Source of the DNA: Methylobacter sp.
Lineage (GTDB): Bacteria > Pseudomonadota > Gammaproteobacteria > Methylococcales > Methylomonadaceae
Length of the DNA stretch: 64,000 nt
NCBI GenBank assembly: GCA_030653175.1
Contig: JAURZV010000082.1
Location: forward strand, 42,571-106,570
Reading direction: 5' to 3'
The position numbers and the translations under genes are program-made. This document shows, in pieces, positions 266 to 14,821 of the stretch; the stretch's first letter is position 1, and every line of letters starts with the position of its first letter. The notes below the pieces were generated by a model. The model was not told where the DNA came from. It saw nothing but the letters and a program-made list of their open reading frames with translations, and made no database searches.

Positions 266-1549
266 TTACGGCATGCTCACACTCCTTCCAAAATTGTTTA
301 GAACAATTTTGCCGCCCGACATAACAAGATCAGGATATTCCAGTATTTTTAAAGCATGAACAGGGTCGCCTTTCACCGCAATCATATCGGCCGGTGCGCC
401 GGGTTGTAAGGTACCCAGCAGCGGTATATTTAAATATCGGCCTGCTTTCGATGTGGCAGTACGCAAGACATCAATCGGTTGCATGTTTGCCATGTGCATC
501 ATATAAATAAGCTCCTGCGCATCGATACCCCAAGGGATGTCCGGGTGCGCAATTTCAGCGCCGTATAAAAACTCAGCGCCCAGCGCGGCCAGGGTGTTGA
601 CATTGTGGGCAATACCCGGACATTTCGATAAGGTATCTATCGTAGTGACTATTTTTACATGCCGGGCCACGGCTTTTTTCAGCAACGGTTCGGGGATAAC
701 GTCACAAGGAACGTGCGCCCATTCATCAATGCCTGCGCCAATGGCGATCTGTACGCCTTTTTCCTCTGCAATATGCGCCGTGACTTTACGGTCATGTTGA
801 TGCGCTTCATCGACAATCGCTTTGACAATATTTTCCGGTAATAGCGGCCATGCCTGTTTTGAGTGGGCAGGTTTGTGATGGGGATTTTCATGCTCTGCAG
901 CCGGTTGATTTTCATGACCATGTCCATGACTGGAGACCCAGGGCGCACCCGCTTCACCGCCGGGTTCCAGTGCGACTTTAATCACCACTGCGCCCCCCTC
1001 TATAAGATTACGGACAGTTTCCCGCGCTTGTTCTTCTGTAGAAACAGGTGCGGCAATGTTGGTAATCCCCATGCCTGGAATAGGATAACCATCAGGCGCG
1101 GTAATAATCAGACCTGAAGTCAATACACGCAAGCTTCCGTCGCCACCGTAAGGCTTGTGTACGGGCCCGCCTACATCCCGAAGCGTGGTAATGCCATGCT
1201 TAAGAACAGTGTCAGCCGGAATCTTTTGAAATGTTATATGCGCATGCAATTCGATAAAACCGGGCAGCAGGGTTGCATCATCGCCCAGATCAATGACTTT
1301 CGCATCACTGGACTTAAATGCTTCACGCGAATCGATTTGCGCTACTTTCCCGTTTATCACCAATACCGACGTATTGGTTCTGATATTAGTGCCGTCGAAA
1401 ACGCGTGCGGCATGCAGAAGAATTGGACTTTGCCCGGTTTCTTGAGCGACGACCAATGAAGAGGTAAAGACTGTCAGGACTGAAAATAAAAAGGGCCGGC
1501 TGCGATTGAGCAACCTGAAGAGCATTTTCAGTATTATGCGTTTTATCAT
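266..1549 (-). CDS. Amidohydrolase family protein (imidazolonepropionase/prolidase-like metal-dependent hydrolase), exported
   Basis: ELHAHITF (HxH), TLRDVGG, VTAHIAEEKG and C-terminal LGTLQPGAPADMIAVKGDP typical of the family; signal-like N-terminus. Confidence 0.85.
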   Translation of the reverse strand: MIKRIILKMLFRLLNRSRPFLFSVLTVFTSSLVVAQETGQSPILLHAARVFDGTNIRTNTSVLVINGKVAQIDSREAFKSSDAKVIDLGDDATLLPGFIELHAHITFQKIPADTVLKHGITTLRDVGGPVHKPYGGDGSLRVLTSGLIITAPDGYPIPGMGITNIAAPVSTEEQARETVRNLIEGGAVVIKVALEPGGEAGAPWVSSHGHGHENQPAAEHENPHHKPAHSKQAWPLLPENIVKAIVDEAHQHDRKVTAHIAEEKGVQIAIGAGIDEWAHVPCDVIPEPLLKKAVARHVKIVTTIDTLSKCPGIAHNVNTLAALGAEFLYGAEIAHPDIPWGIDAQELIYMMHMANMQPIDVLRTATSKAGRYLNIPLLGTLQPGAPADMIAVKGDPVHALKILEYPDLVMSGGKIVLNNFGRSVSMP

Positions 1550-2372: not shown

Positions 2373-3545
2373 ATGCAATTATTACCATTAGTCCAGCCTG
2401 CAAAGGAGTTAAGTAAGGACGAAATTTCACGCTATAGTCGCCATTTGCTGATTCCCGATGTTGGTCTGGAAGGACAAAAGCGTCTCAAGAACAGTAAAGT
2501 TTTAGTGATAGGCGCAGGCGGATTGGGGTCGCCGGCGCTTCTTTATCTCGCGGCGGCCGGGGTCGGGACATTGGGAATTATTGACTTCGATGTCGTTGAC
2601 GAATCAAATCTACAAAGACAAATCATTCATGGACAATCCGATGTCGGCAGACTTAAATCCGAGAGCGCAAAGGATTCGATCAACGAGTTAAACCCCTACG
2701 TTCATGTTCAGCTTCATAACGCACGCCTTGAAGCCGCCAATGCCATAGAGATAATTTCAGGCTACGACTTGATCGTGGATGGAACGGACAATTTCGCTAC
2801 ACGGTATCTTGTTAACGATGCCTGCGTCCTTGCAGGAAAGCCCTATGTTTGGGGATCCATCTTCCGGTTCGAAGGCCAGGCTTCTGTTTTCTGGGAAGAT
2901 GCACCGGGAGGAGTCGGTCTGAATTATCGCGATTTGTACCCCGAACCACCGCCACCGGAAATGGCTCCTTCATGCGCGGAAGGCGGGGTGTTAGGCATAC
3001 TCTGTGCTTCGATAGGCGCAATTATGGCGACAGAGGCTGTCAAATTAATTACCGGTTTAGGCGAAACTTTGTTGGGTCGACTTGTGGTCTACGATGCTCT
3101 GGATATGACGTATCGATTCATACCCTTAAGGAGGGCGCCGGTAAGGGTTCCCATTACCGGCTTGGTCGATTATCAGGAGTTTTGCGGGCTAAAGAGACCT
3201 GCAGAAGACCATAAAACAAATGTTCCAGTAATCAGCGCACTGGAACTTAAAAAAATGCAAGAAAGCGGTACTGATTTACAGTTAATCGATGTGCGCGGAA
3301 TCGAGGAATGGAATATCGTCCGTATTGAAGGCGCTAGCCATATCCCCAAAAATATCATCATGTCCGAAGACGTTTTGTCCCGGCTTAATAAAGACGATTT
3401 CATTGTTCTTCAGTGCAAAATGGGTGCGCGTTCGAGAGATGTTCTTATTGAGATGCAAAAGCAAGGTTTTACCAACGTTAAAAGTTTGGACGGTGGAATT
3501 ATAGCGTGGATCAGGGATGTGGATCCGTCACTACCCGTTTATTAA
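2373..3545 (+). CDS. MoeZ/MoeBR-type adenylyltransferase with C-terminal rhodanese domain (sulfur carrier activation)
   Basis: GAGGLGSPALLYLAAAGVGTLGIIDFDVVDESNLQRQ ATP-binding motif; PSCAEGGVLG; rhodanese loop CKMGARS. Confidence 0.93.
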   Translation: MQLLPLVQPAKELSKDEISRYSRHLLIPDVGLEGQKRLKNSKVLVIGAGGLGSPALLYLAAAGVGTLGIIDFDVVDESNLQRQIIHGQSDVGRLKSESAKDSINELNPYVHVQLHNARLEAANAIEIISGYDLIVDGTDNFATRYLVNDACVLAGKPYVWGSIFRFEGQASVFWEDAPGGVGLNYRDLYPEPPPPEMAPSCAEGGVLGILCASIGAIMATEAVKLITGLGETLLGRLVVYDALDMTYRFIPLRRAPVRVPITGLVDYQEFCGLKRPAEDHKTNVPVISALELKKMQESGTDLQLIDVRGIEEWNIVRIEGASHIPKNIIMSEDVLSRLNKDDFIVLQCKMGARSRDVLIEMQKQGFTNVKSLDGGIIAWIRDVDPSLPVY

Positions 3546-3621
3546 GCGGCTCGCCCCATCCGGCGGCACACTACTTATTGAATTCAAGATACTACCAACA
3601 CACGGATACTGAGGGAATATT

Positions 3622-4074
3622 ATGCTAGTTATACACTCCAAACTTGTTGAAGCAATGATTGCTCAATCACATAAAGATCACCCGATTGAAACCTGCGGTG
3701 TCATCGCCGGCCCTGAAGGGTCTAATATTCCGTTGCGTCTTATTCCCATGCGTAATGTGGCGCAGTCAAAGACGTTTTTTGAGTTCGACCCGCAACAGCA
3801 ATTACAGGTCTGGAGAGAGATGGAGGCGCAGGGCGAAGAGCCTGTTGTTATCTACCACTCACATACCGGCTCACAGGCTTATCCGAGTCGCACCGATGTT
3901 GAAAATGCGTCAGAACCGGGAGCCCATTATGTGATTATTCCAACAGACAATTTATATGATCGGGAAATTCGCAGTTTCCGCATTTTAGACGGGATGATTA
4001 CCGAGGAGAGGGTCTGTACGGTAAGCGCTTACCATAAATTACAAGCTGCTTTGGAACAATTAATAGAGGCTTGA
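3622..4074 (+). CDS. JAMM/MPN+ metalloprotease (Mec+/QbsD-like)
   Basis: HSHTGSQAYPSRTD matches HxHx7SxxD; upstream Glu in ETCGVIAG. Confidence 0.9.
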   Translation: MLVIHSKLVEAMIAQSHKDHPIETCGVIAGPEGSNIPLRLIPMRNVAQSKTFFEFDPQQQLQVWREMEAQGEEPVVIYHSHTGSQAYPSRTDVENASEPGAHYVIIPTDNLYDREIRSFRILDGMITEERVCTVSAYHKLQAALEQLIEA

Positions 4075-4162
4075 GTTTTGTATCGGACTTTAATTATTAG
4101 AGCAATAGCGAAACCCATCCTGCGAAACTCTTCAACACTATAAAACCCTGAAAGGAGTAAAC

Positions 4163-4435
4163 ATGCGAATCACCGTGAATATCCCAACCATATTAAGACC
4201 GCTCACTAACGATCAAAAACGTATTGAGATAACCGCTTTAAATGTTCTTGAAGTCATAGATCAGATAGAGCAACAGTATCCCGGCGTTAAGGAGAAACTG
4301 ATTACCGAAGGACAGGCACACCGTTTCGTTAATATATATGTCAACGATAATGACATTCGTTTTAGTGACGGTCTTTCAACAAGTCTGCAAGACGGCGACT
4401 CGATAACCATTCTACCCTCTGTTGCCGGTGGTTGA
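4163..4435 (+). CDS. MoaD/ThiS/CysO-like sulfur carrier protein
   Basis: 90 aa, beta-grasp-like spacing, ends ...ITILPSVAGG-stop. Confidence 0.9.
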   Translation: MRITVNIPTILRPLTNDQKRIEITALNVLEVIDQIEQQYPGVKEKLITEGQAHRFVNIYVNDNDIRFSDGLSTSLQDGDSITILPSVAGG

Positions 4436-4465
4436 GTTCAACTTAACCGTACTCACTATTTAATA

Positions 4466-6358
4466 ATGCATATGAATCGTCCATTAACCGGCTGCATGAT
4501 AACGGGGCCGTTGCAAAACCCGGCCTCTGATTTTTCTGTTATAGCCTCTTCACTTCGCTATCAATCCAGCGCATTGGGTATGGTTTGTGAGACTGGCGAA
4601 AACTCCGGAAGCAATGCAGCGTTTTCTTTTGAATTTAAAACCCCTCATACCTCACCTGTCATCTGCGAAGTGACCCGATGGGACGACGCCTCCAGGCATA
4701 CGCCTGTGACCGAAAATATCATTCAGGCAGCTTGTGGTCTAATGTCGGTGCATGGACGAGCTAGCGGTAAATCCCAGGCTTTGGGAGTAAATTACGTTTC
4801 TACCTTGACTGCGGCCCTGGCACTTCAGGGGGGCGTGGCTGCTTCGATTGGTCAACTGCGAGGCCTTTCTGTGTCGAACAGTAGCGTTTCGATGGCCGCC
4901 GCCGCCCTATTAAGCGTAGGACAGTATATAGCAGGGGCGACAGCTTTTGAGTCTCCCGAAACTCTATTGCCGGGTATTATCCCACAGCCGGCGTGTCCTC
5001 CCTTTGTTTCAGCGGATGGTGTTATCTTTGAACTGGAAACACTGGATGCAGGGCCTTGGCAAAAATTTTGGCTTGAGATAGGGGTAAGTTCACAAATCGC
5101 CGGTAAGGGTTGGACTGCTTTTTTACTACGCTATGCCAAAGCCATAGCCCCTATGCCTGCTGAATTAATCGCTGCGATAGCCAACCTCAGTTATTCACGT
5201 ATTGTCGAGCTATGTGCCATTACCGGCATGGCGACTTGTCCAATACGCTCTATTGATGCCAGAGCCCAAGACGAAGACTGCAAACGGGTGTGGCTTCAAG
5301 GACCTTGGGAATTTGCTTTCGAACCTACTCTAAAAAGCACACCGGCCAGCGTTGCCGGCAATGATTTACCGTTAAGCGGACTCACCGTTATCGAGTCCTG
5401 TCGGCGGATTCAGGGCCCTCTTGCAGGACATTTGCTTGCATTGTTGGGCGCGGACGTAATCAGGATAGAACCGCCGGGCGGCGATCCTTTGCGCGGTATG
5501 CCGCCAATGGCGGAGGGCTGTTCAGCACGATTTGACGCGCTTAATCGACACAAAACTATTCGGGAAGTTGATATTAAATCTTCAGCCGGACAAGCGGAAA
5601 TTAAAGAGCTTGTGGAACACGCCGATGTCTTTCTTCATAACTGGGCGCCCGGCAAAGCGGCGCCATTAAATCTAGACCATGAGCATTTGGCGGCAATTAA
5701 TCCCGCCCTGATTTACGCCTACGCGGGTGGCTGGGCAACAGACGGCGGGGCACAGTCATCCAGGAACATCATGCCGGGTACGGATTTTATGACTCAAGCC
5801 TATTCCGGAGTCGCAAAAAAAATTGCCGGGGCTTCGGGTACGCAAGGCGGCTCGTTATTTACGGTATTGGATGTGCTGGGTGGCGCTGTTGCGGCACAAG
5901 GAATCACTATCGCACTGCTCAATCGATGTATGAATAAAGTTGGCGGCAAAGTGACTTCATCGTTAATGAGTACAGCGACGCTGTTATGTTCGGATGATTT
6001 GCAAAAGCTCTATAAGCCGCAGAATACCGATATAACTAATAAAAGCATTATTGATGCTGTCTACGCCACCAGACAGGGACATTGTGCGATTGAATGTTGT
6101 GACGTAAAAACGACGGAGCGATTGGCTAAAGCCCTTAATATCACTATCGGTATTGACGAAGAAGGCTTTCATCAGCATTTGAGCGACTTATTGCTATCAA
6201 GAACGGCAAATGAGTGGATTGAGGTCCTGGAACAAGCAGACGTTCCTTCAGCTGTGGTTGTTGAAGACCTCACTGACTTACAAACCATCCCACATCTACA
6301 ACCGAGCTTAACTACCGGCTCTTATACCAAAGTTATTTCTCCTTGGAGGTTCAAATGA
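4466..6358 (+). CDS. CaiB/BaiF class III CoA-transferase family protein with additional N-terminal CaiB-like half
   Basis: C-terminal half: LSGLTVIESCRRIQGPLAGHLLALLGADVIRIEPPGGDPLRG and PGTDFMTQAYSG (catalytic Asp). N-terminal half has CaiB-like VTENIIQAACGLMSVHGRASGKSQALGVNYVSTLTAALALQGGVAASIGQLRG. Confidence 0.88.
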   Translation: MHMNRPLTGCMITGPLQNPASDFSVIASSLRYQSSALGMVCETGENSGSNAAFSFEFKTPHTSPVICEVTRWDDASRHTPVTENIIQAACGLMSVHGRASGKSQALGVNYVSTLTAALALQGGVAASIGQLRGLSVSNSSVSMAAAALLSVGQYIAGATAFESPETLLPGIIPQPACPPFVSADGVIFELETLDAGPWQKFWLEIGVSSQIAGKGWTAFLLRYAKAIAPMPAELIAAIANLSYSRIVELCAITGMATCPIRSIDARAQDEDCKRVWLQGPWEFAFEPTLKSTPASVAGNDLPLSGLTVIESCRRIQGPLAGHLLALLGADVIRIEPPGGDPLRGMPPMAEGCSARFDALNRHKTIREVDIKSSAGQAEIKELVEHADVFLHNWAPGKAAPLNLDHEHLAAINPALIYAYAGGWATDGGAQSSRNIMPGTDFMTQAYSGVAKKIAGASGTQGGSLFTVLDVLGGAVAAQGITIALLNRCMNKVGGKVTSSLMSTATLLCSDDLQKLYKPQNTDITNKSIIDAVYATRQGHCAIECCDVKTTERLAKALNITIGIDEEGFHQHLSDLLLSRTANEWIEVLEQADVPSAVVVEDLTDLQTIPHLQPSLTTGSYTKVISPWRFK

Positions 6359-8019
6359 ATCATGCAGGTATCATAGATATAGTCCCCAGCGAAGTTCGTA
6401 ACCAGTGGGTTGAAAATGGAACCTATCCAAATCAATCCGTATACGAGTTGTTTTGTGAGCATGTACAACAGCATCCTGATAACCCGGCGGTTCTATCCCT
6501 TGACCAAACAGTCACTTACGCAGAGTTACTGGACAAGGTTCAGCGCTTCGCTACCAGCCTCAAAGAACTGGGGATTGTCCCTGGAGATGTTGTCGCCTAT
6601 CAACTCACTAATAGTTGGCATAGCTGCGCAATAGATCTTGCGGCTGCAGCGCTGGGTGCGATCGTGGCCCCTTTCCCGCCCGGACGCGGTCGTCTTGATA
6701 TTGACTCGTTACTGAGAAGGTGTGATGCGCGCGTGATTATTGTCGAACGGGAACACGCCAACATCGATCTGTGCGAGCTCATTGAATCACTACGCCCCAC
6801 TTTGCTGTCTCTGCGCGTTCTAATCGTTGATGGAAAAGCCCGAGACGGCTGGCACACGCTGGATGACCTCTTTCAAGCCGCACCGATTGAGTCCGGCAAA
6901 TTACCATCAGTCTGCCCCAACTCACCCGTTCGCTTCCTGATCTCGTCCGGAACAGAATCCGAGCCAAAATGGGTTGCCTACTCGCACAATGCACTGATTG
7001 GCGGGCGAGGTCGTTTTCTGCAACGAATACATTCTGATGGAAGCACTTTTAGAGGGCTGTATTTGATGCCGCTTGGCACAGCATTTGGTTCATCCGCGAC
7101 ATTTGGTATTTTATCCTGGCTAGGCGGATCCATTGTGATCTTGCGGCAATTCGATGTCGCAGCGGCCATTCAAGCTATTGCAGAGCTTAAGCCGACCTAC
7201 ATCTTTGGGGTACCCACCATGTTTCAACGCATCGCTGCGGATTCGGCATTGTCGCAAATCGATAAGTCCAGTCTGATCGGTATCATTAGTGGAGGGGCGG
7301 AGATTGATGAAGCATCAATCCGCCGATGCACCGAGGCATTCGAATGTGGTTTTATCAGTTTATACGGTTCGGCGGATGGTGTTAACTGTCATACGACACT
7401 TGACGACGATTTAGAAACCGTTCTCCATAAAGCGGGTCGACCTAATCCGGAAGTTTGTTCCATCAGAATAGTCGATGACGAAGGGCAAGAGGTGCGTCAA
7501 GGGGGCGTTGGAGAAATTACCGCCAGGGGGCCAATAAGTCCCATGCAATATGTTAACGCGCCGGACCTGGATGCTCTATACCGGGACAAAGAGGGTTGGG
7601 TGTACACCGGAGACCTGGGTCTTATTGATGCTGACGGGTATTTGGTGCTGTCCGGGCGCAAGAAAGACATTATTATTCGTGGCGGCGCCAATATTAGTCC
7701 TGTTCAAATCGAAAATGTCGCTATTTCCCATCCCGATGTCGTCAGCGCGGCCTGCGTACCTGTTGCCGATCCGGATTTGGGGCATCGAGTTTGCCTCTGT
7801 TTAGTAATGCGTGAGGGTGTCGAACGCCTGTCGCTTTCCCTATTTGCCGGCTACTTGCGCGAACAGGGTTTAGAGACAAACAAGCTCCCGGAATATTTGC
7901 GCTACTATCGGCAATTACCTCTCAGTCCGGCTGGAAAGGTCGATAAAAAGCAGCTGACCGCGGAGATGGAGTTTATCCGGGTCGGGACTAAACCACGCTT
8001 TGCTGAAGGAGTTCATTAA
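6355..8019 (+). CDS. Acyl/aryl-AMP ligase (ANL superfamily)
   Basis: FLISSGTESEPKWVAYSH, YTGDLGLIDADGYLVLSGRKKDIIIRGG, LSPAGKVDKKQL motifs. ATG at 6355 overlaps upstream stop (ATGA) with GGAGG just upstream. Confidence 0.93.
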   Translation: MNHAGIIDIVPSEVRNQWVENGTYPNQSVYELFCEHVQQHPDNPAVLSLDQTVTYAELLDKVQRFATSLKELGIVPGDVVAYQLTNSWHSCAIDLAAAALGAIVAPFPPGRGRLDIDSLLRRCDARVIIVEREHANIDLCELIESLRPTLLSLRVLIVDGKARDGWHTLDDLFQAAPIESGKLPSVCPNSPVRFLISSGTESEPKWVAYSHNALIGGRGRFLQRIHSDGSTFRGLYLMPLGTAFGSSATFGILSWLGGSIVILRQFDVAAAIQAIAELKPTYIFGVPTMFQRIAADSALSQIDKSSLIGIISGGAEIDEASIRRCTEAFECGFISLYGSADGVNCHTTLDDDLETVLHKAGRPNPEVCSIRIVDDEGQEVRQGGVGEITARGPISPMQYVNAPDLDALYRDKEGWVYTGDLGLIDADGYLVLSGRKKDIIIRGGANISPVQIENVAISHPDVVSAACVPVADPDLGHRVCLCLVMREGVERLSLSLFAGYLREQGLETNKLPEYLRYYRQLPLSPAGKVDKKQLTAEMEFIRVGTKPRFAEGVH

Positions 8020-9221
8020 TGTTGGAAACGCATGGAAAATCTGCTCATACCGAATTAGCCGGATCACTTGCCAGTGAAGTGAAAAAATTTGTTGATGAAA
8101 TAATCATTCCGAACGAACCACAGTTGGCTCAAGACGGGGATTCATCATCCGCGCTACAAGCAGAGCTGACCGAAAAAGCCCGAAGTGCCGGACTATGGGG
8201 TTTATTTTATCCACTTTCCCATGGTGGAAAAATAGCCTCTCTCGAAGACTACCTCATTGTAGCTGAACAGGAGGGGCGCACCGAATTTTCCCAGGCAATC
8301 TTTGGCAGCCACTCCGCGCTCGATGCACACATGTTGCTGAAATTCGGCAGCGATGAAGTGCGTAAAAACTTCCTGGAACCCATGGTGAAAGGCAAAGCCA
8401 TCGCCAGTTATGGTATGACCGAGCCTGAACATGGCGGTTCGTTTCCCAGCTTAATCACCACATCAGCGCAGCTGGCTAACGGCAACTGGACTATCAACGG
8501 CAGAAAATGGTTTGTGTGTAACACGGATCGAGCAACTTTTGTTACCGTCCTGGCGCGTACTGCCGGGGAAAATGTGGCGATTCATAAAGCGCTTTCAATG
8601 ATTATTGTGCCAACCAACGCAGAGGGCTTTAAAGTTGAACGACAGATTAGCATGATGGGGCGTTCGCTGGGTCAAGGCGAAATGTCTTTTACCAACGTGC
8701 AGGTGCCAGAACATAATATTTTAAGCTGTAGCGGCAGCGGTATAGCCTTAATGGGACAGCGGCTTAATATTGGACGGCTGCTGCGCTCGATGAACTGGGT
8801 AGGACTGGCGCAGCGATGTTTTGATTTAATGGGCGCACGGATTAATTCCGAGCGCGGCCTGTCAGCCCGCTTGCCGGACAAACAGCTGGTACGTCAACAC
8901 ATGGTTAATACCTATCAAGCCATTACCAGTGCACGCGAATTAATTCGCGTAGCCGCACGGGGTGTCGATGCCCAACGTGCCAATGATGTTGAGATTAATG
9001 TTGCTAAAATGGCCGCCTCGCAAGCCTTATGTATGGCCTCGGACGCTGCGATGCAACTATACGGCGCTGAAGGTATTAGTGATCTCACGCCACTATCGGG
9101 TATTTACCGGATAGCGCGCACGACACGTATTCTCGATGGTTCGGACGAGTCGCTAACCAGTTCGGTTGGCCGAAAGCTCATCGATTGTTATAAAGACGGC
9201 GGCGTGTATCACTTTGATTGA
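8019..9221 (+). CDS. Acyl-CoA dehydrogenase-like flavoprotein
   Basis: YGMTEPEHGGSFPSLITTSAQ, WTINGRKWFV, YGAEGISDLTPLSGIYRIARTTRILDGSDE; start overlaps the ligase stop by 1 nt. Confidence 0.92.
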   Translation: MLETHGKSAHTELAGSLASEVKKFVDEIIIPNEPQLAQDGDSSSALQAELTEKARSAGLWGLFYPLSHGGKIASLEDYLIVAEQEGRTEFSQAIFGSHSALDAHMLLKFGSDEVRKNFLEPMVKGKAIASYGMTEPEHGGSFPSLITTSAQLANGNWTINGRKWFVCNTDRATFVTVLARTAGENVAIHKALSMIIVPTNAEGFKVERQISMMGRSLGQGEMSFTNVQVPEHNILSCSGSGIALMGQRLNIGRLLRSMNWVGLAQRCFDLMGARINSERGLSARLPDKQLVRQHMVNTYQAITSARELIRVAARGVDAQRANDVEINVAKMAASQALCMASDAAMQLYGAEGISDLTPLSGIYRIARTTRILDGSDESLTSSVGRKLIDCYKDGGVYHFD

Positions 9222-9348
9222 TTCAACTTTTACAATTCTGGCGAATTATTCGGGCGATTTGTTGCGTGAATGCAGTACGCTAACCGGCATACTGTCATTC
9301 GCGGGTATCCTGCTGCTGGTCTTGGCATACGCCCGCCGCAAAGCGCGA

Positions 9349-10788
9349 ATGATAACAACCAGCTCCACCAGGCACACAACACCCGTTGCAGATTTATGGT
9401 TTCGAATAGTCCTGGTGTTTGCAATGGCTTTACCCATGCTGGTGTTATACGCCACCAGCACACTTGGGCTGCTCCTTAGTCAGGACTTACACTTTAAACC
9501 CGAATTGCTGGGTTATTTGATTATGAGTTCTTTTGGCCTGGCAGCGATTTTATCGCTCTGGGCGGGGGCATTTGTAGATCGCCTTGGTTCACGCTATTCC
9601 CTGATAATTCTTTTCTCTGCCATTGCATTGGCCTTTACGATGATGGTAACGGTGCAGAGTTTTTATGGCCTGGTCGCGGCGGTCGGCGTGTGCGGCATTG
9701 CCCAGGCGCTGGCAAATCCGGTCACCAATTTACTGATCGCGCAGCAAGTGCCGCCGGAGAAAAAAGCAATGGTGGTAGGGCTAAAGCAGGCGGGCGTTCA
9801 GCTTGCGGCTCTTTTCGCAGGTCTCGTATTGCCCGGTATTGCCGTTGCCTATGGCTGGCGATTCGCGCTGGCTATCATTATTCCCTTGTCATTTATATTC
9901 ATCATAACAACGCCTTTTATTACCCCTAAAAGGATAACAAGAACGGGTAAAGGGTTCACGATATCAATGCCGAACGCGCTACTGTTTCGCTTGATGAGTA
10001 TTCAATTTTGCGTGGGTATCTCACTTTCCGCTTTCGTCACATTTTTGCCTACTTTTGCCACACAGCAAGGTATGCCGCTGTCTCTGGCAGGCACGTTAAT
10101 TGCCGTTTTCGGTGCGATGGGTATCATTTCGCGCATGGTATTGACGCCTATGGGGGCAAAACTTAAGGACGAATCGCTGCTATTACTCGCGCTCATTGCC
10201 ATTGCAGCCGTTGCAATGGCGGTGACGATGCAAGCGAGTCCAGAGCAGTACTGGCCGTTATGGGTGGGTGCGGTGGGTGTGGGGCTTACAGCAGTAGGCA
10301 CTAACGCGATAGCAATGAGCATGTTAATCAGAGACTCAGCATTTGGCGCGGTAACTTTTGCGTCTGGATTTGTCTCGGTGGCCTTCTTTGGTGGCTTTGC
10401 GCTTGGCCCGCCACTTTACGGCGTTTTGTCGGATTACTCCGGGGGCTTGCTGTTGAGCTGGAGTACCCTGATCGGCGTGCTCGTAGTCGGTTGTATCATG
10501 GCACTGGCATTAGCATCAGCCCGACGGCGCAGGTTGCAGCCTCGCGATGAAAACTTTCAGGAGCTCGCACAACTTAAATCAGATGTTTTGTTGCTTAAGG
10601 AGCGGTTAAGCGCATTAGAAAGCAATTATTGTGTCGTTTTGACCAGGTTGGCTGAACTATCAAACACGCACGAGTTTAGTAACGAAACAATGAGCGCAGA
10701 GAACAACGACTTTGCTCTTGAACAGATCGAAGGCCAATTGATTGATTTAAAAGCATTACGACAATCTGAACGGAACGCAAAGTCGTAG
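9349..10788 (+). CDS. MFS transporter (probable exporter); start uncertain, ORF open from 9166
   Basis: About 12 hydrophobic segments; GAFVDRLGSRYSL loop; GLKQAGVQLAALFAGLVLPGIA. Confidence 0.9.
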   Translation: MITTSSTRHTTPVADLWFRIVLVFAMALPMLVLYATSTLGLLLSQDLHFKPELLGYLIMSSFGLAAILSLWAGAFVDRLGSRYSLIILFSAIALAFTMMVTVQSFYGLVAAVGVCGIAQALANPVTNLLIAQQVPPEKKAMVVGLKQAGVQLAALFAGLVLPGIAVAYGWRFALAIIIPLSFIFIITTPFITPKRITRTGKGFTISMPNALLFRLMSIQFCVGISLSAFVTFLPTFATQQGMPLSLAGTLIAVFGAMGIISRMVLTPMGAKLKDESLLLLALIAIAAVAMAVTMQASPEQYWPLWVGAVGVGLTAVGTNAIAMSMLIRDSAFGAVTFASGFVSVAFFGGFALGPPLYGVLSDYSGGLLLSWSTLIGVLVVGCIMALALASARRRRLQPRDENFQELAQLKSDVLLLKERLSALESNYCVVLTRLAELSNTHEFSNETMSAENNDFALEQIEGQLIDLKALRQSERNAKS

Positions 10789-10861
10789 GTCGGGTTAGCG
10801 ATAGCGTAACCCGACATTTGCCGCTTCGATGTGTCGGGTTACGCTACGCTAACCCGACCTA
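10785..10861. repeat. Long inverted repeat / REP-like hairpin after the MFS gene
   Basis: gtaggtcgggttagcgatagcgtaacccgaca ... tgtcgggttacgctacgctaacccgacctac. Confidence 0.85.
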
Positions 10862-11077
10862 CATACTGACGCAGTACAACGTTTATAACTTGTTTTTATT
10901 ACCATGAAGGACATGAAGATAATGAAGGGAAGGGTTAAAAAGCTTTGTTTTATGAATCGTCACAATATCACGCATGAAGTCAATACAGTCATATCTTCAA
11001 GTCCTTCATGGTCTTCATGGTAAAAATAAGTGACATTTTCTGGAATCAGCACCCCTGTGTTCTCTGTGCCTCTGTGG

Positions 11078-11866
11078 TTAATTTTTTTTCAAAGCGTTTA
11101 CAACTTCATCAACGAATAAGTCAGGCGCGGTTCTTATCGCGCCGTGTTGCTGCCCTTGGAGTATTGCAATCCGGCTATTGGGCAAGGTCTGGTTGAGCGT
11201 CTTTGCGATGGTGTGGCGGCGCGGATGGCTTTCGCTACCCAGCAGGAGCAAAGTAGGAGTCAGCACGGCGCGAAACCGCAGGGGATCGAAGACATAGCGG
11301 TCGATACTTTGCAACTCGCGATGGATCGTGTGAGCCGCGGCCACCCGCCTCTGCCAGTTCGGTCCGGCTTGCATGGCGGCAATCTCACGAGGCGGTGTTT
11401 TGACGATGTTGCAAAGAAAGAGTAGCAAGGCCTCTTCCCTGTTTCCTGTATCCAGCAAAGCTTCCATGTGCGCGTCTAACTCCGCAGACCAGCCACTGCC
11501 GACCAATGAGAGGGGCGGTTCGTAGAGGGTGAGCCGGCCAATGTTTGGAGTCAGGAGTGCGGCTTCCAGGGCGCAAAGCCCTCCAAAGGAATGCCCTATG
11601 ACATGCACAGAGCCACCGATGGCATCAATGACTGCGACGATATCTTCACACTCGCGTTCGAATGTGTAGTCTTCTGCGGCATCGCCGCTGTCGCCACGCC
11701 CCCGTCGGTCGATGACCCACACGCTAAAGTGACGCTCAAGTGCTGCCAACACCGGCGCCCATGTGAGGTGGTCCCCGGTAGTGCCATGCACAAGTAACAG
11801 TGGCGTTCCTGCGCCGCTATGTCGGCACGCGATAGGTGTGCCATCCTTTGAGGATATTAATTCCAT
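11078..11866 (-). CDS. Alpha/beta hydrolase
   Basis: LLLVHGTTGDHLTWAPV, DRRGRGDS, nucleophile elbow GHSFGG. Confidence 0.9.
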   Translation of the reverse strand: MELISSKDGTPIACRHSGAGTPLLLVHGTTGDHLTWAPVLAALERHFSVWVIDRRGRGDSGDAAEDYTFERECEDIVAVIDAIGGSVHVIGHSFGGLCALEAALLTPNIGRLTLYEPPLSLVGSGWSAELDAHMEALLDTGNREEALLLFLCNIVKTPPREIAAMQAGPNWQRRVAAAHTIHRELQSIDRYVFDPLRFRAVLTPTLLLLGSESHPRRHTIAKTLNQTLPNSRIAILQGQQHGAIRTAPDLFVDEVVNALKKN

Positions 11867-12005
11867 GATATTTATGTTCCTGAACTTTTAAGTCTAAGCC
11901 GAGAAATTCGGCGCAACTTTTCAATATTCCATAGTAACTACTCACCCTGGCTGACGCTCACTTCTACACGTCACAAAACATGCTGTTTAAAATCGTAAGT
12001 AAATT

Positions 12006-12083
12006 TCAAAGCTGGCTTTGAACTCATTATCCACATTTTCTGGAGTCCAAAGCTTGCTTTGGTCGCTTCAAAGTTGGCTTTGC
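12006..12083 (+). repeat. Dispersed repeat (caaagcNNgctttgaactc ... ggagtccaaagcttgctttgg), copy 1
   Basis: Same module order as 15132-15206. Confidence 0.7.
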
Positions 12084-12150
12084 GATTAAAAAAGGCACGA
12101 GCAGTTACATTCCATAAAGATAAAATTTTCATTTTCATTTTGAGGCACAA

Positions 12151-13677
12151 GTGGGAAAAATCAAAAATAATATTTATAAAAGCTCTTCAACCCGCAGTTC
12201 CAGTCGCTTATTACCGCTGTTTGTTATAGCGGCAATATTTCATGCCGGCAGCGAATTGAGAGCTGAAGAAGCCAAACCTTGGGGACAGATTAACGACTAT
12301 CTGCGTGTTACCGGCGAATTTCAAGGCAGCTACGAGGCGTGGAATTTTTTTCAGCCCAGTTCAGTAAACAGTAACAACGAATACGATTTATGGTCACTGC
12401 GTGCCCGTCTGGGCTTACAACTGACTACTTCCTTTGTTGATGCCTACGCACAGGCTCAATACAATGGACTTTACGGTCTTCCCGATAATGCTGTAGCGGC
12501 TCCTCCGGTCGGTGCATTGGGGCTGGGCGGGGCTTATTATTCGGCGAATCAATCCACTGACCCCAGTAATGTATTTTTGAAACAGGCTTTTCTGAACTTC
12601 AAGGGCAACGCATTAGGACTGCCCGGAACGCAGTTAAAAGTCGGCCGATTTGAATATATGGATGGCCTGGAATACAAATCAGGCGATGTCAAGTTTGACG
12701 GCCTCAAATCGAAACGTGTCGCACAACGTCTGGTAGGGTCAAACGTCGTCCATGTAGGTCGAAGTTTCGACGGCTTTTCCACGGTCTATGATCAACCGGA
12801 TTTCAATATCACCGCCAGCGGTCTTCGTCCGACTCAGGGGGGCTTTACGGTTCAAGGGCAGGATGAGATCAGCAAAATCGACCTGTTTTATACTGCACTG
12901 ACCAGCAAGAGGAATGCGTTGTTGCCGGGGACTGAAGGCAGGCTTTTCTACCTGTATTACAATGATGACCGTAACACCCAAGTGGTAGACAACCGCCCTG
13001 TTATTAACAGACCCAACCTTGACAAGCAGGATTTAAATCTCCATACCGTCGGCACGCACTTGCTAACACTTCAATCATTGGGTTCCGGCAGTATTGATGG
13101 TTTATTGTGGGGCGCTTATCAGTTTGGCGATTGGACTAATCTGGATCAGCAAGCGTGGGCTGTAGATGCCGAAGTCGGCTATCAATGGACTAAACTGCCT
13201 CTCAAGCCGTGGCTGCGCGCCATTTATTATCTAAGTTCGGGCGACGATAATTCAACAGACGGTAAACACAAAACCTTCTTTACCGCACTTCCCTCCCCAC
13301 GCACTTATGCCAAGTTTCCCTATTACAATATGATGAATCTGCAAGACGCGTTCGTACAAATGATTGTGTCTCCCACCGATAAGATCAAAGTTGCAATCGA
13401 CTTCCATCATCTGGGGCTGGCCAATTCGAGTGATTTATTCTATAGCGGACCGGGAGCTACCTCGCGCTCAGGTTCGTTCGGCTATTCCGGGCGACCTTCC
13501 GGCGGCAATACGGACATTGGGCAATTGGTGGATATAAACTTTACCCACAACCTTACCAAGGAATTTTCATGGACCCTTTATTACGGTCACGCCTTTGGCG
13601 GTAATGTCATTCAAAATGTCTACCCAAGACAAAAACATGCTGATACCGCTCATGTAGATTTTAATCTGGTTTTCTAA
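12151..13677 (+). CDS. Outer-membrane beta-barrel, alginate-export (AlgE-like) family porin
   Basis: Signal-like N-terminus; WGQINDYLRVTGEFQGSYEAWNFF, LKVGRFEYMDGLEYKSGDVKFDGLKSKRVAQRLVGS; terminal aromatic ...DFNLVF. Confidence 0.75.
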   Translation: MGKIKNNIYKSSSTRSSSRLLPLFVIAAIFHAGSELRAEEAKPWGQINDYLRVTGEFQGSYEAWNFFQPSSVNSNNEYDLWSLRARLGLQLTTSFVDAYAQAQYNGLYGLPDNAVAAPPVGALGLGGAYYSANQSTDPSNVFLKQAFLNFKGNALGLPGTQLKVGRFEYMDGLEYKSGDVKFDGLKSKRVAQRLVGSNVVHVGRSFDGFSTVYDQPDFNITASGLRPTQGGFTVQGQDEISKIDLFYTALTSKRNALLPGTEGRLFYLYYNDDRNTQVVDNRPVINRPNLDKQDLNLHTVGTHLLTLQSLGSGSIDGLLWGAYQFGDWTNLDQQAWAVDAEVGYQWTKLPLKPWLRAIYYLSSGDDNSTDGKHKTFFTALPSPRTYAKFPYYNMMNLQDAFVQMIVSPTDKIKVAIDFHHLGLANSSDLFYSGPGATSRSGSFGYSGRPSGGNTDIGQLVDINFTHNLTKEFSWTLYYGHAFGGNVIQNVYPRQKHADTAHVDFNLVF

Positions 13678-13690
13678 AGAGACTCTTGTT

Positions 13691-14821
13691 ATGCGCATAA
13701 TGGAAAAAACACCCGGCAACACGACTGATGAAAAGCTATTGAGCCATGAAGAAATGCTGCGCGCACTTGAATTGATGATTCGTCGTATGGATGCCATTGA
13801 TGCCAATTGCACGAACGGCTTTCCTCTTTATTCGCCAGGAAGTACTGATCAATGGGTTGTCTCCCCGGGAGGTTCCTGGGTCGGCGGATTCTGGGCCGGG
13901 TGCTGGTGGTTGCGGGCAAAGGTGACGGAATCAAGGTCGGATCGACACAAAGCGTCGGATATTTGTCAACGCTTGGGCAATAAAATCAGTGCCGATTCTA
14001 TTAACCGAAGCATGATATTTTGGTACGGCGCAGCTCTTGGTGATATCTGGTTTAGCGATGAACATGCACGGAAACTTGTCAAAGAAGCCGTTGCCGCACT
14101 TGCAGCATCCTATGACCCGGAGATACGGTGCATTCCCGTTGGTACAGACATGGGGGGTGGAAAAGATGGGAATCGACGCATCACGATAGATACTTTTGCT
14201 CCCCTCATCCAACTCTTTAGCCGCAGTGAATGTAGCCAACATGAATACATCTCGCGATGGCACGCGGATACTCTATTGGCTGCATGTCGTACCGATAAGA
14301 ACGCGTTTCATACAGCTGCGTGCTATGAGCAAGGGAACTTCAGACCAACCGATCAAGCCGGTGAGTGGTCTCGCGGCCAAGCCTGGGCCCTGTTGGGACT
14401 GAGCCGGGCGGCAGCGCAATGGGGTGAACCCTACCTGAGTTATGCCCGATCTGCTTGTGAATACTGGCGATATTCACGTCCGGAGCCGATGCCTTCAAAT
14501 CGACTGGGTCATCCATCAGGTCTTTGTGATCCATCATCCTCTGTGGTTGCGTCTCTTGCTATGCTCTCCCTGGCAGACCTAATAGCTGATGGGGAACAAT
14601 GGCGAACTTATGCCCATCAACAGATTACCGCGATCATTCGAAGCCAATACTTCACAGGGTTTCAGGAAAATGGTGGCAGAGTTGCCAAGGGTATATTTTG
14701 GGGTTGCTGTTACAAAACCAATCAAGGCAAGGATGAACTGGTCGAGTCGGCTTGGGGCAGTTTTTTTCTGATGTCGGCGCTCTCCATTCTTGTTGACGCT
14801 ATAAAGCCAGGCGACTGCTAA
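13691..14821 (+). CDS. Glycoside hydrolase family 88-like (unsaturated glucuronyl hydrolase)
   Basis: GSWVGGFWAGCWWL, AGEWSRGQAWALLGLSRAA; alpha6/alpha6-barrel style. Confidence 0.75.
   Translation: MRIMEKTPGNTTDEKLLSHEEMLRALELMIRRMDAIDANCTNGFPLYSPGSTDQWVVSPGGSWVGGFWAGCWWLRAKVTESRSDRHKASDICQRLGNKISADSINRSMIFWYGAALGDIWFSDEHARKLVKEAVAALAASYDPEIRCIPVGTDMGGGKDGNRRITIDTFAPLIQLFSRSECSQHEYISRWHADTLLAACRTDKNAFHTAACYEQGNFRPTDQAGEWSRGQAWALLGLSRAAAQWGEPYLSYARSACEYWRYSRPEPMPSNRLGHPSGLCDPSSSVVASLAMLSLADLIADGEQWRTYAHQQITAIIRSQYFTGFQENGGRVAKGIFWGCCYKTNQGKDELVESAWGSFFLMSALSILVDAIKPGDC

Follow-up and report, generated by a model that had tools for sequence, protein, structure and literature searches.

The gene set PdtF-G-H-I-J was described in 2006 by Iyer, Burroughs and Aravind as a siderophore biosynthesis operon (row 4a), for which Nitrosomonas europaea and Nitrosospira multiformis were already named, and the JAMM proteases accompanying sulfur-carrier operons that resemble thioacid siderophore clusters were called 'mysterious' (PMC1779556). 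Dong et al. (2018) termed the same operon type a 'thioacid cassette' (PMC6006322). In the thioplatensimycin system (PtmA3, PtmU4, PtmS1-S4), a ligase and a two-domain CoA-transferase are fed by a carrier, an E1 and a JAMM, and the carriers PtmS2 and PtmS3 bear the caps MV and C, respectively. In vitro, thioacid formation was achieved with E1, CoA-transferase, ATP, thiosulfate and carriers cloned without their caps, with the JAMM unlisted; KSH yielded more product than did the route via the carrier, and the product was lost in the ptmS1 knock-out (PMC6006322). This knock-out does not separate trimming from release, because the carriers of this system are capped.

Mec+ hydrolyses the CysO-cysteine adduct (PMC3227635). 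In the pairs of TtuB and its JAMM (Thermus) and of SAMP and HvJAMM1 (Haloferax), the JAMM strips conjugates off the C-terminal glycine of the carrier. Deletion of the Thermus JAMM leaves aberrant TtuB conjugates behind and about halves thiouridine (PMC3980101).

The window, i.e. the whole stretch of 64,000 nucleotides from Methylobacter sp. that was analysed, contains a cassette of this already known operon type (Table 1). By gene content, it shares the five core genes of the PDTC (pdt) cluster, PdtF, G, H, I and J. The E1-rhodanese, the JAMM, the carrier and the two-domain CoA-transferase are also shared with the thioquinolobactin system (QbsC/QbsD/QbsE), which was recovered in two loci (L080 and L049). 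QbsE-type carriers end in GGCF or GGRS and need trimming, whereas the window carrier ends at GG. The sulfur genes of thioplatensimycin are located elsewhere in the genome and its carriers are capped; the window combines one cluster with a bare carrier. The CysO/Mec+ system of Mycobacterium likewise pairs a carrier ending in GG with a neighbouring JAMM of this clade, but the window cassette lacks a CysM-type cysteine synthase and its expected product is not an amide-held amino acid. The TtuB and SAMP carriers differ in that they also modify proteins or thiolate tRNA.

Gene content and kinship of the cassette

The E1-rhodanese, JAMM, ThiS/MoaD carrier, two-domain CoA-transferase and AMP-ligase were found in one cluster by Pfam, NCBIfam and synteny. 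The locus is a PDTC/thioquinolobactin-type thioacid cassette, and its product would, judged from these genes, be a thioacid. With the MoeZ model the E1-rhodanese scores 638 bits, just below the cut-off of 647, and its rhodanese Cys348 is present within LQCKMG. The initial annotation had the carrier end in LPSVAGG-TGA, so that trimming is unnecessary, and this was confirmed by the ORF (...ITILPSVAGG, then TGA), which has a good ribosome-binding site (AAAGGAGTAAACATG), and by the PF02597 profile, which is matched to its last position. The intact HxHx7SxxD motif reported for the adjoining JAMM was found as well: the gene lies directly upstream of the carrier gene, and E23 and H79-S-H81-x7-S89-x2-D92 make up a complete JAMM/MPN+ motif.

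By motif reading, Asp440 in PGTDFMTQAYSG of the CoA-transferase is a candidate for the conserved Asp of the C-terminal domain. The AMP-acid ligase likely starts at the ATG at 6355, which is preceded by GGAGG, and the true start of the MFS transporter is probably located downstream of 9166. No PLP synthase of the CysM type was found among the genes scanned at 2373-14818, and the ORFs surrounding the cassette showed no kynurenine pathway genes. Three flanking genes of the window are found again next to related cassettes, also where E1 was lost; they code for an amidohydrolase-like protein, an alginate-export-type porin and an unsaturated-glucuronyl-hydrolase-like protein.

Table 1. Genes of the thioacid cassette in the window and of its recurrent neighbours.
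Feature	Position	Strand	Evidence
Amidohydrolase-like protein	266..1549	-	
E1-like adenylyltransferase with C-terminal rhodanese domain (PdtF/QbsC/MoeZ type)	2373..3545	+	PF00899 (E 2e-78); PF00581 (E 2e-15)
JAMM/Prok-JAB metalloprotease (PdtG/QbsD/Mec type), 150 aa	3622..4074	+	PF14464 (E 2e-31); motif alignment
ThiS/MoaD-like sulfur carrier (PdtH/QbsE/CysO type), 90 aa, without C-terminal cap	4163..4435	+	PF02597 (E 1e-15); nine-locus alignment; PDB matches
Two-domain type III CoA-transferase (PdtI/QbsK/PtmU4 type)	4466..6358	+	PF02515 at residues 303-612; family role from PMC6006322
AMP-acid ligase (PdtJ/QbsL/PtmA3 type)	6355..8019	+	PF00501 (E 2e-57)
Acyl-CoA dehydrogenase-like enzyme	8019..9221	+	PF00441/PF02770/PF02771; synteny (retained by most related cassettes)
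MFS transporter of the cassette	9166..10788	+	PF07690 (E 9e-37); synteny
Alginate-export-type porin	12151..13677	+	
Unsaturated-glucuronyl-hydrolase-like protein (GH88 type)	13691..14821	+	PDB matches

Outside the cassettes, the closest proteins by sequence among the records searched are those of a Tsukamurella mec-cysO-cysM locus, to which the window JAMM is 62% and the window carrier 52% identical. The best two PDB matches of the carrier profile were 4n6e, a carrier of the ThiS/MoaD family, and CysO (3dwg). In the JAMM tree, a single clade (96/80) unites the Mec-type, QbsD-type and cassette JAMMs and excludes the generic ones; the branching order inside this clade is not settled. Kinship alone therefore does not pick a Mec-like over a QbsD-like function, and for the same reason the window pair is not claimed to be a transplanted Mec+/CysO pair distinct from QbsD/QbsE.

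Carrier ends in related cassettes and in ThiS

The comparison set comprised 67 JAMM-carrier loci, of which 60 are E1-bearing cassettes; three of the 67 are records of a plasmid collection (the mec-cysO-type loci L047 and L048 and the qbs-type locus L049). Close relatives were located in Nitrosospira, Nitrosomonas, Pseudomonas and Bisbaumannia. Cassette relatives occur in 18 of 400 genomes of a genus that is Pseudomonas-like judged by its clusters. In Nitrosomonadaceae, to which Nitrosospira sp. NpAV belongs, 39 of 125 genomes have one, and two further cassettes (L045, L046) were found among 201 genomes of the window's own family. A single-sequence query with the CoA-transferase's N-terminal half, run over 369 genomes of the class, matched the window only. 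The search for relatives in viral contigs gave none.

In total, the carrier stops directly after GG in 49 loci, among them L113 and both mec-cysO loci, extends past GG in 14 and has lost GG in 4. Within the E1-bearing cassettes, the carrier is bare in 46 of 60, and the active-site residues of the JAMM are intact in all 60. A bare GG with an intact JAMM is thus the norm and not an exception. The gene order E1-JAMM-carrier-CoA-transferase together with a ...VAGG carrier end was also found in Nitrosospira, Nitrosomonas, Pseudomonas, Halomonadaceae and dozens of further genomes, and this recurrence across genera argues against chance as the cause of a bare GG beside a JAMM. The carrier of Nitrosomonas europaea ATCC 25978 was read as bare as well. 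In the comparison of carrier ends across homologous loci, which had been proposed as a check, the bare GG is usual, but tails were gained repeatedly in orthologues.

Tailed carriers were found in L070, L049, L055 and 11 Nitrosomonadaceae loci. The capped control was recovered in the qbs-type locus L070/L080, which contains a tryptophan dioxygenase and other kynurenine pathway genes and has the carrier end GGCF; the end in the qbs-type locus of Burkholderia multivorans (L049) is GGRS. This RS-capped locus carries kynurenine-pathway-type genes; its replicon of 2.4 Mb is recorded as a plasmid (NZ_CP143551.1). On the plasmid pACIB of Aliarcobacter cibarius (L084), a cysteine synthase, a JAMM and a carrier with a one-residue cap (SIAGGI) are interrupted by a transposase gene and lie near encapsulin and cysteine desulfurase genes.

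In Nitrosomonadaceae, the orthologous carrier keeps VAGG and the residues beyond it vary, with a stop in most. The tailed ends include GGC (L102, L106, L107), GGGG (L099), GGSRI (L116), GGQEKVDC (L108; the tail of L114 is QEKINC) and GGQAEPVRAPHIR; written without the GG, the tails of L115, L091 and L092 are AEPALLHT, QAEPVRAPHIR and QAEPVRFPHIK, respectively. In one genome, the carrier stop codon was lost and the read-through results in a carrier-CoA-transferase fusion of 737 aa (L120:2835-5045; G1437:C26). In the DNA, a TAA stop has become CAA, a TGT codon has been inserted, GGCGGA is repeated and a one-base frameshift converts the L107 kind to the L115 kind, which suggests the route by which the tails arose. 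Assembly error was rejected as their source, since the QAEPVR-type tail is present in two genomes (L091, L092) as well as in L006, a RefSeq record, and contigs of megabase scale carry several more of the tailed loci; the L120 fusion is known from a single genome.

On a tree calculated from E1, JAMM, CoA-transferase and the carrier minus its tail, 10 changes of tail state were counted, nine of them forced by strong branches. Eight fall in Nitrosomonadaceae and two elsewhere, so that the gains in Nitrosomonadaceae amount to at least eight. All tailed Nitrosomonadaceae carriers, which belong to E1-bearing cassettes, adjoin the same intact JAMM. No residues were found that tell the JAMMs beside tailed carriers from those beside bare ones. 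At one GGC-ended carrier, two neighbouring JAMM matches of equal score were detected (G1433:C1:2751729-2752700), probably due to a tandem duplication of the JAMM gene.

ThiS, a carrier without a JAMM partner of its own in Nitrosomonadaceae genomes, was used as a control; it was substituted for MoaD (TIGR01682), which was dropped as it matched in only 6 of 125 genomes. ThiS ends at GGG-stop in 39 of 39 of the same Nitrosomonadaceae genomes, and also in 30 of 30 ThiS loci of the family that were picked by score and stem in part from the same genomes. Tails are thus present in 11 of the 35 cassette carriers that keep GG and in 0 of 39 ThiS (Fisher p = 1e-4, relatedness ignored); the count of events on the same species, 8 versus 0, points in the same direction. 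Tails were thus confined to carriers with a JAMM partner. Read most simply, the cassette JAMM also removes what follows GG, and the cassette JAMM family most likely still trims, since the tailed orthologues need it. In these ammonia oxidisers the end of the carrier drifts freely, by which the role of the JAMM becomes testable. New here are the comparative evidence that splits the possession of a JAMM from the need for trimming and the finding that the stop codon of the carrier was lost repeatedly and that this is tolerated; an earlier report was not found in the literature searched, which left out most subscription papers.

JAMM retention with and without E1

The five motif residues of the JAMM are intact in 46 of 46 bare-GG and 14 of 14 tailed E1-bearing cassettes. 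In bare-GG pairs, the pairwise dN/dS of the JAMM is 0.01-0.26, within the range of E1 and carrier, which indicates that the JAMM of uncapped cassettes is under purifying selection. It must therefore be selected for something besides trimming, and uncapping, the published role, is inapplicable to these cassettes, whose carriers end in GG from the start. In the Pseudomonas-like genus and Halomonadaceae, 20 bare-GG cassettes with one tailed neighbour (L055) were found, with an intact motif and low dN/dS.

In loci without E1, CoA-transferase and ligase, the JAMM motif is broken in three of four lineages. In L123-L126 (G1415, G1390, G1363, G1362), which lack E1, the motif Ser is replaced by Arg and the carrier GG has decayed to AG, GN or AD. 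Their JAMM has a dN/dS of 0.04-0.09, i.e. it is still under purifying selection, and JAMM and carrier are possibly a repurposed pseudo-enzyme pair. The motif Ser is replaced by Asn in L113/L203, and several motif residues are changed in L236. In L237/L238 the motif is intact and the carrier is only a remnant, with a low dN/dS between the two members. On the tree, four E1 losses and three motif losses were counted, an association that is not statistically significant due to too few independent events. The predicted JAMM catalysis would appear tied to the E1 pathway and not to the presence of a tail, a pattern that rests on four events.

Possible functions of the cassette JAMM

With moderate confidence, the JAMM is proposed to be a pathway-dedicated hydrolase at the activated glycine of the carrier, which would constantly clear adducts and trim tails where these are present. 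As read from the genes, the locus would make a thiocarboxylic acid: the ligase and the CoA-transferase would activate a carboxylate, the E1-rhodanese would adenylate the C-terminal Gly of the carrier and convert it to a thiocarboxylate, and the carrier would hand over its sulfur at the CoA-transferase. The JAMM, dedicated to this pathway, would act on bonds at the last glycine. Since the carrier is born with a free GG here, its constant task is probably to clear E1-dependent adducts, i.e. dead-end amide or isopeptide conjugates and possibly a slow on-pathway intermediate, and thereby to return free carrier. The same activity would strip residues after GG once a stop codon is lost, so that such losses are tolerated in relatives. 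For such a constant role on a carrier that ends in GG, Mec+ and the Thermus JAMM are the best precedents.

More tentatively, the JAMM could make the stop codon of the carrier nearly neutral, with drift between bare GG, short tails and fusion; the indispensable job would then be E1-dependent adduct clearance and not trimming, and the active site would tend to decay after E1 loss. The intact motif of the E1-less L237/L238 counts against the adduct-clearance reading. Bare, short-tailed, long-tailed, fused and pathway-less loci form a natural series by which trimming and adduct clearance can be separated experimentally.

It is unlikely that the JAMM is purely a maturation protease, with the bare GG as a recurrent temporary state. 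The enzyme could be kept in bare-GG lineages simply as tails return often; at least ten gains of tails and the known capped carriers with a JAMM (QbsE, whose GGCF end was recovered here, PtmS2 and PtmS3) fit this. However, the 20 bare-GG cassettes of the Pseudomonas-like genus and Halomonadaceae retain the motif at low dN/dS with a single tailed neighbour, and mec-cysO carriers end at bare GG as well.

The initial annotation had taken the JAMM for a product-releasing hydrolase rather than a carrier-maturation protease. The first half of this stands insofar as the enzyme does more than trim, given the intact motif and low dN/dS beside bare carriers; Mec+ is among its nearest relatives. The exclusion of maturation finds no support, given the tails gained beside an intact JAMM, in one case up to a 737-aa fusion, which imply an ability to trim. 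An on-pathway release of a carrier-product adduct without any carrier maturation, comparable to the action of Mec+ on CysO-cysteine, thus appears improbable, even though the JAMM is selected beside bare-GG carriers, is closely akin to the mec-cysO type and seems tied in its catalysis to E1. As an obligatory step, release is disfavoured by the in vitro synthesis from pre-cut carriers, E1 and CoA-transferase with the JAMM unlisted (PMC6006322), and for a thioacid product an amide adduct like CysO-cysteine would be unneeded. An accelerating role of the JAMM may still apply, as the yield with KSH exceeded that with the carriers.

A second, C-terminally extended carrier, named beforehand as a possible true substrate, does exist in the genome. 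ThiS is fused in frame to ThiG (L002:1495-2472, G000:C19; junction GGG-QDDSF-MLAGVKY...), and in the window's family all 122 relatives with a ThiS match carry it within an open frame of ThiG size (at least about 320 aa); the linker GGGQ... was read in 30 of them (L206-L235). It is nevertheless very improbable that this fusion is the real substrate of the cassette JAMM, which is present in only 3 of 201 genomes of the family, whereas a JAMM profile match was obtained in 186 of 201, nearly all via a separate generic JAMM. The generic JAMM of the window genome (G000:C18:10365-10742) is the likelier partner and may free ThiS from ThiG; none was shown in Nitrosomonadaceae, whose ThiS is unfused. 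That the JAMM is vestigial in bare-GG cassettes, where trimming is not needed, can practically be dismissed in view of the motif conservation (46 of 46) and the dN/dS values given above.

Several Pseudomonas-like cassettes (L010, L075-L079, L082, L083) contain an additional O-methyltransferase, a second MFS transporter and a piece of a TonB-type receptor. In the same cassettes, a protein of approx. 804 aa without Pfam match and one of approx. 839 aa with a class III aminotransferase domain are encoded, which may resemble PigD/PigE.
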